This document shows, one piece after another, positions 48,696 to 55,535 of a DNA stretch of 64,000 nt. The stretch's first letter is position 1. Each line of letters opens with the position of its first letter. The translations under genes and the position numbers were made by a program. The notes beneath the pieces are model-generated. The model did not search any database and was not told the origin of the DNA. It was given only the letters and a program-made list of their open reading frames with translations. This DNA comes from Capsulimonas corticalis (GTDB lineage Bacteria; Armatimonadota; Armatimonadia; Armatimonadales; Capsulimonadaceae): positions 744,001 through 808,000 of the forward strand of contig NZ_AP025739.1 in assembly GCF_003574315.2 (NCBI RefSeq). The letters run 5' to 3'.

Positions 48696-50546
48696 TTAGA
48701 GCACCAGCGACATGACGGCTTTTTGCGCGTGCAGGCGGTTCTCGGCCTGATCGAACACGACCGACTGCGGGCCTTCCAGCACATCCGCCGTGATCTCCTC
48801 GCCCCGGTGCGCGGGCAGGCAGTGCATCACCAGCGCGTCCGGCTTCGCAAGCGCGACCAGCTCCGCATTCACCTGAAACGGCGCGAAGATCTTCAGGCGC
48901 TCCGCCGTTTCTTCTTCCTGGCCCATCGATGTCCAGACATCGGTGTAAACGGCGTCGGCGTCCCTGACGCCCTCGGTCACATTGTCGGTGATGGTCAGCG
49001 TCGCGCCGGTTTCGGCGGCGCATCCCAGCGCGACCTGCCAGAGCGCCTCATCGGGCTCGTAGCCCTTGGGGCAGGCGATGGTGAAGTCCACGCCAACCTT
49101 CGCGGCCAGCAGCATCAGCGAGTGCGCCACGTTGTTGCCGTCGCCAACGTACGTCATCTTGAGGCCCGCCAGCCGTCCCTTGCGCTCCCCCAGCGTCTGG
49201 AAATCGGCGAGCGCCTGACACGGATGCTCCCGATCGCTCAGGCCGTTGATCACGGGGATACTGGCGTACTCGGCCAGATCCAGCACCGTCTGGTGCGCGA
49301 ACGTCCGCGCCATGATCCCATCGATCCAGCGATCCAGGTTGCGCGCGACATCCGGAACGGTCTCCCGGACTCCCAGACGCCCTTCCAGATAGATCGCATG
49401 GCCGCCCAGCTGGGTCATGCCCGCCTCGAAGGTAACGCGCGTGCGCAGCGACGGCTTTTCAAAGAGCAGCGCCAGGGTCTGCCCCTGCGCGAATTGCGTC
49501 TGGGTGACATCGTACTTGTTCGCCTTGAGCCGGGCCGCAACATCCAGGATCAGCATGATCTCGGCGCGCGTCAATTGTTCGATGCCGATAATGTCGCGGC
49601 CGCGCAGGGCGTGCTGGCTGAGGACATCGGCGATCGGGGAGACTCCGACGGGAGCCGCCATGCGCTGCGAAGTGACGGGAGAGAAGTTCTGCTGCGCGCC
49701 ATCCCCATCCGGACACGTCTCCGGCAGCGGCCGAGGCAGCACGCGCATCACGAGCGCTTCGCCATACGGCGTCGAGCGCTCCGACAGGAGAAGCTCGTAA
49801 CCGCGGCCGCCGTAGGCGACCGTGATCGCGCCGGTCGTCCCCGGCGCGGCGGGGGAGTTGATCATGCTCCGATAGCGCGCCACCAGCGGGAGCAGAAAAT
49901 GCTTGGGAACGGTCGTCGCCTCGCTGAACGAGCCCCACGCCAGATGCGCCACGCGCACATCGCCTTCTCGCGGCTCGATATGCACTTCCACAACCTGCTC
50001 CTTCAGCGCCTCCTGAAGGATCTGAGTCGCCATGCGGATGATCGGCGAATCGCCGCCGCCATGCGTTTCCAGGTCCGTCGGATCCTGCGCATTTTGCAGC
50101 AATGAGATTTCGGCGAGCAGCGCCGCCTCGCCCGCGCCGGCCTTGGTCAGCGCGGCGGAGATCGGGCTGTCCTCGAGACGCGTCAGCGCCACCAGCAGAT
50201 GCTCGGTGCCGATATACGATTCGTAGAGCGATTTCGCCGCCGCGTCCGCCAGATCCAGAACGCCCGAGGCTTCGGTTGTCAGCGGCCGCTCGCGGCTCGC
50301 CGACAGCGACAGCGGCAGATCGTGCTCCACGCTCTCCCCTTCGCCCGCCATCTGGTCCGCCGCCTTGGTCAGCGCCTCGACATTGACGCCCAGACGCGCC
50401 AGCACATAATCGGCCACGCCTTCCGTCTCGCCCAGCAGCGCAATATAAATATGCTCCGGCGTAATCTCCGCATGCGACCGCCGCGCCGCTTCCTGCTGCG
50501 CCGAGAATAGCACCATCCGCGCGTTAAGGGTCAATTGTTTAGACAT
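48696..50546 (-). CDS. argF: Fusion protein: Clp_N repeats - GspE-like domain - ornithine carbamoyltransferase
   Basis: 616 residues in one frame. Residues 1-150 hold two Clp R repeats (ITPEHIYIALLGETEGVADYVL; IGTEHLLVALTRLEDSPISAAL). Residues ~166-270 resemble the N-terminal part of the GspE/PilB ATPase domain (SPIIRMATQILQEAL, VEVHIEPREGDVRV, YGEALVMRVLP), stopping before any Walker A. Residues ~303-616 are a full ornithine carbamoyltransferase: FEKPSLRTRVTFE, HPCQALADF, VGDGNNVAHSL, HCLPAHRGEE. It should make citrulline from ornithine and carbamoyl phosphate. GGAG precedes the start; internal Met296 has no SD, so a real fusion is favoured. Confidence 0.88.
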   Translation of the reverse strand: MSKQLTLNARMVLFSAQQEAARRSHAEITPEHIYIALLGETEGVADYVLARLGVNVEALTKAADQMAGEGESVEHDLPLSLSASRERPLTTEASGVLDLADAAAKSLYESYIGTEHLLVALTRLEDSPISAALTKAGAGEAALLAEISLLQNAQDPTDLETHGGGDSPIIRMATQILQEALKEQVVEVHIEPREGDVRVAHLAWGSFSEATTVPKHFLLPLVARYRSMINSPAAPGTTGAITVAYGGRGYELLLSERSTPYGEALVMRVLPRPLPETCPDGDGAQQNFSPVTSQRMAAPVGVSPIADVLSQHALRGRDIIGIEQLTRAEIMLILDVAARLKANKYDVTQTQFAQGQTLALLFEKPSLRTRVTFEAGMTQLGGHAIYLEGRLGVRETVPDVARNLDRWIDGIMARTFAHQTVLDLAEYASIPVINGLSDREHPCQALADFQTLGERKGRLAGLKMTYVGDGNNVAHSLMLLAAKVGVDFTIACPKGYEPDEALWQVALGCAAETGATLTITDNVTEGVRDADAVYTDVWTSMGQEEETAERLKIFAPFQVNAELVALAKPDALVMHCLPAHRGEEITADVLEGPQSVVFDQAENRLHAQKAVMSLVL

Positions 50547-50587: not shown

Positions 50588-50841
50588 CCCTATTCCCCCG
50601 GCGCTTTAGCGCGCTTTTCCCCTTTTTCCCAACAAGCCGCTTCGCGGGGGAAAAGGGGTGCTGATCACTGCCGTCCATTCACTCGTTACATGACCGTGAG
50701 GAGATTGCTTGCGTATGCCGAATGCTCCTCATACATACTTGTCGAGCGAGAATGGCTTCAATGAATAGCTCCCCTTTTCCCCTGCGAAGCAGCTTGTTGG
50801 GAAAAAGGGGGAAAGCGCGCTAAAGCGCCGGGGGAATAGGG
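50588..50841. repeat. Giant inverted repeat, family C (71-bp arms) in the arginine operon
   Basis: Arms 50588-50658 and 50771-50841 are 71 nt each and pair with about five mismatches; the spacer is 112 bp. Arms contain CCCCCGGCGCTTTAGCGCGC, sharing the GGCGC-TT-GCGC core with family A. The spacer holds GAGGAG...CTCCTC and no gene. The repeat fills most of the 319-bp gap between the Clp_N gene and the ArgF fusion gene and would form a very stable RNA hairpin in the operon transcript. Nothing else was found in the gap. Confidence 0.9.
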
Positions 50842-52588: not shown

Positions 52589-53455
52589 TTACCGTCGAAT
52601 CATCGTCCCGATCCCTTGATCGGTGAATACTTCAATCAAAAGAGCGTGCGGCAGCCGGCCATCGATAATATGCGCACGCTCGACGCCGCCGGCGATAGCC
52701 GCGACGCATGATTCAATCTTGGGGATCATCCCCTTGTCCACCACGCCGTCCGTAATCAGCTGGCGCGCGTCCTTCACGGTCATCTGTGAGATCAAACTGT
52801 CTTTGTCCGCGAAGTCTTGATAGATCCCCTCGACATCGGTCATCACGATCAATTTGCTCGCCGACAGCGCCGCCGCCAGCTCACCCGCAACGGTGTCCGC
52901 ATTGACATTATAGCTCTCGCCCTCGGCGCCGATTGCGACGCTGGAGATCACGGGGATATACCCCGCCGCCGACAGCGTGTGCAGCAATTCAGGATTGATC
53001 TTGACCACGCGTCCCACAAACCCGATATCGCCCTTGGTCGTCTCACGTTCGGCGACGATCAAGTTTCCATCCTTGCCGCTCAACCCCACCGCCTGCCCGC
53101 CCTGCTTGTTCAGGTGCGCGACGATGTTCTTATTCGTCTTCCCCGTCAGCACCATCTCGACGATCTCCATCGTCTCAGCGTCCGTGACGCGCAGTCCGCC
53201 GACAAACGCCGGCTCTTTGCCCATCCGCTGCATGGCGTCGCTGATCTCCGGCCCGCCGCCATGAACCAGGATCGCATTGATCCCGACATAACGCATCAGA
53301 ATAATATCCTGCATTACAGCGGCCTTCAATGTCTCATCAATCATGGCGTTCCCGCCATACTTAATGACAATCGTCTTGCCGGAATATTGCTTGATATACG
53401 GCAACGCCTGGATCAGGACTTCGGCCGCCTGGTTCGGTTGTTTTTGGTTTGGCAT
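52589..53455 (-). CDS. argB: Acetylglutamate kinase
   Basis: 288 residues. TIVIKYGGNAM (phosphate-binding Lys and Gly), LVHGGGPEIS, GLRVTDAETMEIVEMVLTGK and NVNADTVAGELAAAL are all ArgB signatures. It phosphorylates N-acetylglutamate, normally the feedback-controlled step; the N-terminal extension that carries the arginine-sensing helix in hexameric enzymes (QAAEVLIQALPYIKQYSGK) is present, so arginine inhibition is likely. The start lies 3 bp after the stop of the DUF559 gene. Confidence 0.97.
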   Translation of the reverse strand: MPNQKQPNQAAEVLIQALPYIKQYSGKTIVIKYGGNAMIDETLKAAVMQDIILMRYVGINAILVHGGGPEISDAMQRMGKEPAFVGGLRVTDAETMEIVEMVLTGKTNKNIVAHLNKQGGQAVGLSGKDGNLIVAERETTKGDIGFVGRVVKINPELLHTLSAAGYIPVISSVAIGAEGESYNVNADTVAGELAAALSASKLIVMTDVEGIYQDFADKDSLISQMTVKDARQLITDGVVDKGMIPKIESCVAAIAGGVERAHIIDGRLPHALLIEVFTDQGIGTMIRR

Positions 53456-53458
53456 TTG

Positions 53459-53932
53459 TTATGATTCCGAAGATGCTCCCGGCCCCACGGGAATTAAGAT
53501 GCCCCCCGGCCCCCACAGGGGTGCAGACCATAGGGGCGAATACGTGATAATCTGTTCTTCAGAGGCTTCGATGATTTTTGTCAGCACACCTGACAAATCG
53601 TTCAAAATTTCGTTATTACGAAAACGAATAACTCGACAACCATAGGATTGTAAAAACAGTGTTCGCTCCGCGTCATATTCTTCACGCCCCTCATGCACAC
53701 TCCCATCCACTTCGACCGCAAGTTTACATGACGGACAATAAAAGTCGATCACAAATCGACCGAAAGGATGCTGAGAACGAAAGCGCAAGCCGTTCAACTT
53801 CTTTCCACTAATCGCATTCCATAAGCGCTGTTCCATCGGCGTCATCTCGCGACGCATTTGTTGCGCCGCCGCAAGAACCACCGGATCGGTCACAGGCAAT
53901 CGCTCCAAGTAGCCTTTGCCATCAAAACCCAT
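53459..53932 (-). CDS. DUF559 endonuclease-like protein inside an inverted-repeat element
   Basis: 157 residues. REMTPMEQRLWNAISGKKLNGLRFRSQHPFG, then VIDFYCPSCKLAVEVDGSVH and GCRVIRFRNNEILNDLSGVL, match DUF559, a PD-(D/E)xK nuclease-like family related to very-short-patch-repair (Vsr) endonucleases; D, E and D of the core are present. The usual fold ends near GVLTKII; the last ~25 residues are encoded by the left inverted repeat and flanking DNA up to argB. GAGGA lies 6 nt before the ATG. The gene interrupts the arginine operon and is bracketed by 36/37-bp inverted repeats. Confidence 0.85.
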   Translation of the reverse strand: MGFDGKGYLERLPVTDPVVLAAAQQMRREMTPMEQRLWNAISGKKLNGLRFRSQHPFGRFVIDFYCPSCKLAVEVDGSVHEGREEYDAERTLFLQSYGCRVIRFRNNEILNDLSGVLTKIIEASEEQIITYSPLWSAPLWGPGGILIPVGPGASSES

Positions 53933-54001
53933 CTCAATTCCTCAAATCCATCACGCCAGCATTGCTATGGTCTGCACCCCCTGTGGGGGCCGGGGGGCAT
54001 C
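53498..54001. mobile_element. Inverted-repeat-bounded DUF559 element (family D)
   Basis: Arms 53498-53533 (36 nt) and 53965-54001 (37 nt) are complementary except for one extra G: GATGCCCCCCGGCCCCCACA...GTGCAGACCATAG. They enclose the body and RBS of the DUF559 gene. The left arm is read as the nuclease's C-terminal codons, and the right arm begins 1 bp from the DUF104 stop. No target-site duplication or transposase is evident. The mobile character is inferred. Confidence 0.6.
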
Positions 54002-54002
54002 T

Positions 54003-54245
54003 TCACGCATACAATATGCGATCATGATCTGCGCCAGAAAAACCATCATCAGGCGTTTCCATCGGCATCGCGGCGATGCTTAAGAGGATCTCTAATGACG
54101 TTTTTGCTCGATCTTCAGGCGAAATATAATTATTCTCTTCAGGATCCGTCCACGTTACCTTTAAATGCGTCCCTTCGGCCAGCGTCACTGGAGCTAGCGG
54201 GCGCAACACTCCTGCCTCATATACTACTTCCACCGTCGTTGTCAT
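54003..54245 (-). CDS. DUF104 (AF2212-like) antitoxin, partner toxin missing
   Basis: 80 residues. TTTVEVVYEAGVLRPLAPVTLAEGTHLKVTW is the DUF104/AF2212 antitoxin signature, and the C-terminal DHDRILYA is the usual end before a VapC-type PIN toxin. GGGAG lies 7 nt before the ATG. The toxin gene expected directly downstream is absent; the right arm of the DUF559 element begins there. It sits in the arginine operon, 24 bp after argJ. Confidence 0.8.
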   Translation of the reverse strand: MTTTVEVVYEAGVLRPLAPVTLAEGTHLKVTWTDPEENNYISPEDRAKTSLEILLSIAAMPMETPDDGFSGADHDRILYA

Positions 54246-54269: not shown

Positions 54270-55535
54270 TTAGGTATGATACTCCGCGTTGATCTTCACG
54301 TAATCATAGCTGAAATCGCAGGTCCAGACGGTGGCGGTTTCGCCGCCCGCTTGGTGAAAGTCTACCAGAATTTGGACTTCCTTGGCTTTCATGGCTTCGG
54401 AAACGACGTAGCCGTTGAAATCCGTCGGCATGCCGTCGCGGTAGACGGTAGTGCCGGCGAGGGCGATTTCGACTTTTTCGGGCTCGAAGTTGACGCCGGC
54501 GCGGCCGGCGGCGGCGAGGATGCGGCCCCAGTTGGGGTCGTTGCCAAAGAGCGCCGTTTTGACGAGCGGCGAATTGGCGATGGTCTTCGCGACGGAGCGC
54601 GGGAAGCCGGCGCGGTGCTCGGGACTGATCTCGCGGCCGTTGGCGGCGAAGGCGCTGGCGATGTGCTCAGGGACGGCGACATTCTGCACGGTCACTTCCA
54701 CCAGCTTCGTGGCGCCCTCGCCGTCGCGGGCGATCTCTTTGGCGAGGTGCAGGCAGACGCTGAAAAGCGCCTTCTCGAACTCGCGGGCGTCGGCGCTTTC
54801 CAGGCTATCGATAATCTTGTTGCCGGCGAGGCCGTTCGCCAACACAAGCGTCATATCGTTGGTGCTGGTGTCGCCGTCCACGGTAATGGAGTTGAAGGTG
54901 TACCAGGCCACCCGCCGCAGCATCTCCTGAAGAACGGGCTGCTCGATCGCGGCGTCGGTGGTGATGAACCCGAGCATCGTCGCCATGTTCGGCGCGATCA
55001 TGCCCGAGCCCTTGGCGATGGCGCCGAGGCGTACGGTCTTACCGTCCAGGGTGAACTCGACCGCGACTTGCTTCGGGAAAGTGTCGGTGGTCATGATCGC
55101 CTGCGCGGTGTCGTCGCACTCTTCGCCGTGCAGCTTGCCGGCGGCGTCGACGATCCCCGCGATGATCTTCTCCATCGGCAGCTTATGGCCGATCACGCCG
55201 GTGCTGGCGCTGAGCACGCGCCGCATCGGAACGCCGAGCGCCTCGGCGGCGTGCTGCACCATCGCAACGGCGTCGGTGAAGCCCTGATCGCCGTTGCAGG
55301 CGTTAGCGTTGCCGCTATTGACGACGATGGCGCGGGCCAATCCCTCTTCCAAATACGCCTGATTGCTCACGACGCACGGCGCCTTGACGACATTCGTGGT
55401 GAAGACGCCCGCCGCCGCCGCCTCGACATCCGAGACGATCAGCGCCAGATCGTTGCGCTTCCGCTTGATGCCGCAGTAAACGCCGGCGGTCTTAAAACCT
55501 TGAGGGGCGACGATGCCGCCCGGAATAATGTCCAT
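54270..55535 (-). CDS. argJ: Bifunctional ornithine acetyltransferase / N-acetylglutamate synthase
   Basis: 421 residues. VVNSGNANACNGDQG, STGVIGHKLPMEKI and the autocleavage site KGSGMIAPNMATMLGF are ArgJ hallmarks; the chain cuts itself before Thr of ATMLGF, and that Thr becomes the nucleophile. It moves the acetyl group from N-acetylornithine to glutamate, recycling it. Whether it can also use acetyl-CoA (true bifunctional) cannot be read; no separate NAGS is seen in the operon apart from the GNAT upstream. Confidence 0.97.
   Translation of the reverse strand: MDIIPGGIVAPQGFKTAGVYCGIKRKRNDLALIVSDVEAAAAGVFTTNVVKAPCVVSNQAYLEEGLARAIVVNSGNANACNGDQGFTDAVAMVQHAAEALGVPMRRVLSASTGVIGHKLPMEKIIAGIVDAAGKLHGEECDDTAQAIMTTDTFPKQVAVEFTLDGKTVRLGAIAKGSGMIAPNMATMLGFITTDAAIEQPVLQEMLRRVAWYTFNSITVDGDTSTNDMTLVLANGLAGNKIIDSLESADAREFEKALFSVCLHLAKEIARDGEGATKLVEVTVQNVAVPEHIASAFAANGREISPEHRAGFPRSVAKTIANSPLVKTALFGNDPNWGRILAAAGRAGVNFEPEKVEIALAGTTVYRDGMPTDFNGYVVSEAMKAKEVQILVDFHQAGGETATVWTCDFSYDYVKINAEYHT

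Follow-up and report, generated by a model that had tools for sequence, protein, structure and literature searches.

The closest known arrangement in which one small enzyme gene is bracketed by palindromic repeats is that of REP and REPIN sequences with their RAYT (TnpA-REP) genes, REPtrons and TIRYTs (PMC3116915, PMC3733652), and the element considered here shares it. No candidate mover has been available for REP-like repeats that lack a RAYT, among them the CGTC repeats without RAYT (PMC3733652), a class which differs from the arms described below. On the enzyme side, a family of EDxHD homing endonucleases has been described (PMC3943268), and the fold of DUF559 proteins is related to that of Vsr (PMC1189080). 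For DUF559/YcjD, a structure has been solved and the fold is known, but no role, and reading these genes as elements offers a role that can be tested. In an open-access collection, which does not cover subscription papers, 14 papers name DUF559; none of them also names inverted repeats, and no publication tying the two together came to light there. We consider it fairly probable that the locus studied here is a minimal mobile element, in which two inverted, palindromic, REP-like arms enclose a DUF559 nuclease gene, the role of the nuclease being inferred.

The locus lies in a stretch of 64,000 nucleotides of the Capsulimonas corticalis genome (NZ_AP025739.1, positions 744,001 to 808,000), hereafter the window, which belongs to a single 7.65-Mb contig that was searched for arm copies. 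The gene (53459-53932, minus strand, 157 aa) matches PF04480 with E=1.3e-35, which confirms the DUF559 identity proposed in an earlier note on this DNA. That note had placed arms at 53498-53533 and 53965-54001, differing by a single G; their existence and the extra G stood, while the ends were 2 nt short. The repeat search places the left arm at 53496-53533 (38 nt) and the right arm at 53965-54003 (39 nt, with one G more than the left), both belonging to a family designated F1, the core of which is repeated genome-wide. Their perfect match covers 26 nt (53496-53521 and 53978-54003), and one 1-nt gap extends the pair to 38/39 nt. The arms bracket most of the intact gene; as had been described, its reading frame crosses the left arm and terminates 3 bp from the host gene argB (52589-53455, minus strand, PF00696), so that the left arm and host DNA supply the codons for the last ~25 residues of the protein. 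To the right, the outer end of the right arm is where the stop codon of a small AF2212-like ORF (54003-54245, minus strand; PF01954 and the ORF list) starts, and this ORF is followed by the host gene argJ (54270-55535, minus strand, PF01960). The argJ-argB junction is thus indeed split, as claimed, by the element and this previously missed ORF jointly. A degenerate second half-arm (AAGATGCTCCCGGCCCCACGGGAA, 53470-53493), read directly from the sequence, lies directly outside the left arm, and the subterminal sequence at 53534-53560 (GGGGCGAATACGTGA) resembles, by eye, the internal sequence of F1 twins that lack the gene (TTGTCGAAAACGTGA). A target-site duplication, for which the earlier note had suggested looking, was not found at 53496/54003 when the flanks were compared by eye.

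These arms are not a chance pairing, since the inverted-repeat score at the DUF559 gene (71) exceeds that of all 402 same-spacing positions elsewhere in the window (maximum 35), and since the arm core has 49 matches at ≤3 mismatches in the 7.65-Mb genome, against 4 for a reversed control. A single window arm folds only weakly alone (z=-0.45), the strong hairpin being that of the arm pair, and one gene-less F1 element that was folded as a pair proved very stable (z=-13.6). Arms found only at this locus would have refuted the idea of a mobile element; the matches were instead found genome-wide, both with and without DUF559. Many of them form gene-less inverted pairs, with a spacing of 88 to 136 bp and a typical length of ~107 bp. 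Besides the window gene, this genome has two full DUF559 genes, which lie inside long inverted repeats of unrelated sequence, F2 and F3, with 42 and 37 arm copies in their own genome and none in the controls, so that three of three full DUF559 genes are each bracketed by their own repeat family (49, 42 and 37 arm copies). Inner, subterminal sequence is common to the gene-less twins and the gene-bearing copy, most clearly in F3. One gene-less F3 twin lies in the window itself (50624-50805; genome 794624/794805, L074), the DUF559 gene bracketed by F3 being at G000:C1:2525819; this twin is directly upstream of a long minus-strand ORF (48696-50546).

Several features of individual copies deserve mention. 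The flanks of F2 copies are self-complementary past the conserved end, more so than those of permuted pairs (P≤0.0005), which suggests that the copies inserted into hairpins or arose by hairpin-templated repair; the F2 flank list was not wholly free of redundancy, a single locus contributing a few sub-copies, and the F1 value was not used, F1 copies being mostly counted twice. An F3 arm pair (L091, G000:C1:3595800-3597700) encloses an unrelated 168-aa ORF (MPVTKQLSTADEW...), a possible cargo. Long F3 pairs (~1.5 kb) were rejected as carriers of native genes, their contents being an IS3-like element; two F3 copies (L088, L089) are interrupted by one and the same IS3-like element. Two F1 twins (L024, L022) lie ~2.8 kb apart in what appears, by eye, to be a urease operon. 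Apart from the twin between ureA and ureB discussed below, two F1 twins are apparently common to this genome and that of a relative of the same genus (G001), on comparison of their flanks by eye.

Five DUF559 genes, from two genomes, have been shown to have amplified arms, and the arm copies are largely genome-specific. In the second genome (G007), one arm has 31 copies, with 4 weak ones in a same-genus genome, 1 in a third and 0 in the other six searched; another arm has 10 copies, with 5 in the same-genus genome and 0 in any other searched. In Lysobacterales, arm similarity tracks the similarity of the DUF559 proteins (Mantel r=0.45, P=0.0005), and it does so after same-locus orthologues are cut to one (r=0.39, P=0.002), these tests being made without correction for host phylogeny. 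Such co-variation bears on the possibility that a different enzyme, for instance a RAYT/TIRYT HUH transposase, mobilises the hairpin repeats, with DUF559 as a passenger which prefers their inside. The Capsulimonas genome does contain full-length RAYT-type genes, four in all, and inverted repeats surround two of these (which served as a positive control for the inverted-repeat method), and the motif GGGGWSAS, found in the TIRs of some RAYT relatives (PMC3733652), is fitted by GGGGTGAG of proteobacterial DUF559 arms. We nevertheless hold this explanation to be unlikely: the RAYT arms are unrelated to F1-F3, with a best arm score of 33 at RAYT loci against 72-121 at cognate DUF559 loci, and every DUF559 comes with an arm family of its own, the arm type following the DUF559 protein.

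The association with inverted repeats put forward from this single locus holds across phyla. In the host phylum, an inverted-repeat score ≥50 was found around 31 of 57 DUF559 genes, against 0.07% of 4030 positions. In a second set of 78 loci, fetched by protein pattern only and drawn mostly from Pseudomonadota with a few other phyla, the same score was reached at 50 loci and at 1 of 3206 positions; one of the 50 (L258) owed its score to a run of N and was left out of later statistics. Neighbouring genes, used as a control, carried strong inverted repeats in 2 of 410 cases in the host phylum, against 27 of 47 DUF559 genes (P=1e-28), and in 2 of 348 cases in mostly proteobacterial genomes, against 49 of 76 (P=6e-42). 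That DUF559 genes reside inside palindromic repeats is thus very well supported, with roughly 35-45% of them, E. coli ycjD included (score 20), showing no strong inverted repeat. The arms differ in sequence and have a common style, a CCCYYCCC..GGGRRGGG-type hairpin followed by a C/G-run tail, and a C-terminal tail of arm type was recognised, with a loose residue pattern, in 41 of 77 DUF559 proteins. CGTC-type REPs were rejected as the arm type, no CGTC-type hairpin start being present within 300 bp at any of 77 loci, and no GTAG tag was noticed on the arms, which were read for it by eye only. The reversed-pattern control for CCCTCACCCCAACCCCTCTCCC was not valid because this motif is nearly symmetric. 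In Deinococcus sp. NW-56 (L224), the DUF559 gene lies on the opposite strand inside the hpa catabolic operon.

Motifs of four G runs occur at most 300 bp away at 58 of 77 DUF559 loci, against 4.7% of background. This would fit a host nuclease for repair or maintenance, acting on hairpins or G-quadruplexes, with the repeats as binding sites or terminators rather than ends; the Vsr-like fold of the family (PMC1189080) and the terminator-like look of the Xanthomonas hairpin at its gene junction would fit it as well. Such a role appears quite unlikely to us, since DUF559 is patchy, with several different copies per genome, each having its own arms, since its tree conflicts with those of neighbouring genes, and since a housekeeping gene has no need to be flanked, left and right, by an amplified repeat of its own.

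Site occupancy was compared at the hppD-hmgA junction of Xanthomonas. The 35 genomes mostly carry the order hairpin-tail-DUF559-tail-hairpin, several species without DUF559 retain one lone hairpin, and related genera also have DUF559 at this junction. Trees of DUF559 and of the flanks reject each other (AU 1.7e-4 and 1e-86), and in one pair of genomes (G062/G079) the tract of high identity begins at the left arm and ends beyond the right arm. As judged from these trees and tracts, the comparison shows an exchange of DUF559 independently of its flanks, as homing would give, ordinary recombination being also possible; slippage between the two hairpins, with loss of the gene, would account for the gene-less sites equally well. 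In one Xanthomonas copy (L249, 4830-4960), a second GC-rich palindrome is inserted in the left arm hairpin, giving nested hairpins. The occupation of hppD-hmgA in several genera and the exchange of the gene among Xanthomonas species could also mean pure homing at fixed sites, DUF559 moving between strains into the same hairpin, with the dispersed gene-less repeats being independent of it. This seems very improbable, given that the dispersed twins contain subterminal sequence of the DUF559 element and that the arms searched are amplified mainly in the genome which has the cognate gene.

A clean empty site was found at none of three candidate junctions, argB-argJ and ureA-ureB of G001 and sapF-fabI of E. 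coli. The argB-argJ junction of G001, the nearest relative (ArgB 96% identical), does lack DUF559 and any such arm, so that the check for an empty site proposed in the earlier note succeeded in this respect only, another gene, Uma2-like by eye, being present there. Between ureA and ureB, the F1 twin is missing from G001 and a different, short hairpin of F3 type stands in its place. The E. coli junction was rejected because it alternates with the eef operon (PMC12817139).

The enzyme itself was examined by profile and alignment. The DUF559 profile matches PDB 3hrl, a DUF559 protein (E=2.6e-39), and PDB 3r3p, deposited as 'Mobile intron protein' (E=8.8e-5). The latter we take to be I-Bth0305I, of the EDxHD homing family. 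Columns of E, D, ExD, H and D, putative catalytic residues, are invariant in an alignment of the window protein with 13 relatives. A part in a defence system was rejected, PADLOC giving only marginal matches.

From a mechanistic point of view, each arm would consist of a REP-like hairpin and a C/G-run tail, and gene-less arm pairs and single hairpins would be non-autonomous relatives of the element, as REPs and REPINs are to RAYTs. DUF559 is inferred to recognise its cognate hairpin as a cruciform, single strand or duplex, and may cut at or near the hairpin tip, for which there is no biochemical evidence. Repair from an occupied copy, with the hairpin halves as homology, would then insert or restore the element in a homing-like manner, and the same cut-and-copy could occasionally seed gene-less hairpins elsewhere. 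At the level of sequence, our comparisons establish the architecture, the multi-copy and largely genome-specific arms, the co-variation of arm and protein, a variable occupancy and a gene exchange that does not involve the flanks. The driving role of the nuclease is inferred, as the most economical reading. The earlier suggestion of a minimal mobile element is supported in the same terms, its spread by the nuclease itself being inferred only. The data point to a widespread, apparently undescribed kind of minimal mobile element. It is a tentative proposal, to which we give slightly less than even weight, that DUF559 marks a new class of palindromic mobile elements, autonomous and present across bacterial phyla, in which hairpin repeats spread when the Vsr/EDxHD nuclease cuts hairpin tips and copying follows, and that this class explains much REP-like DNA not tied to a RAYT, the CCCTCTCCC..GGGAGAGGG-TTGGGGTGAGGG repeats for example. 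If true, one small nuclease family would stand behind abundant hairpin repeats in many phyla, partly with the logic of homing endonucleases in bacterial chromosomes.

Compared with known systems, the window protein belongs with PF04480 and the PD-(D/E)XK Vsr-like nucleases, by its profile match and its conserved acidic and His residues. With the Vsr mismatch endonuclease it shares a related nuclease fold (PMC1189080) and a weak TIGR00632 match; it differs in falling below the Vsr family cut-off and in having repeats of its own, and among the loci viewed no partner methyltransferase was noticed. The YcjD protein of E. coli (DUF559; PRK09767) is of the same protein family, and its gene is followed immediately by G-rich hairpin repeats; sequence akin to the ycjD 3' region recurs within E. 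coli genomes, with a median of 13 sites in each, but paired inverted arms are lacking around ycjD. With the EDxHD homing endonucleases (I-Bth0305I, PDB 3r3p; PMC3943268), DUF559 shares a homologous nuclease domain, the logic of a free-standing selfish nuclease, and occupied and unoccupied sites at one locus; by contrast, it is not found in an intron or intein, is bracketed by amplified inverted repeats, is multi-copy per genome and has no long DNA-binding extension. REP/RAYT systems have an HUH tyrosine transposase (Y1_Tnp, PF01797), whereas DUF559 (PF04480) is a nuclease of the PD-(D/E)XK/Vsr type; its arms carry C/G-run tails, and no CGTC-type tag was found near the 77 loci tested. Without evidence of arm cleavage or transposition, the locus is probably best seen as a REP/RAYT-like element with a Vsr/EDxHD-type nuclease, spreading by a homing-like cut-and-copy. 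As in REP/RAYT systems, several families occur per genome, each with its own enzyme, and the further criterion that the repeats also exist as gene-less singles and inverted pairs is met by the DUF559 families.
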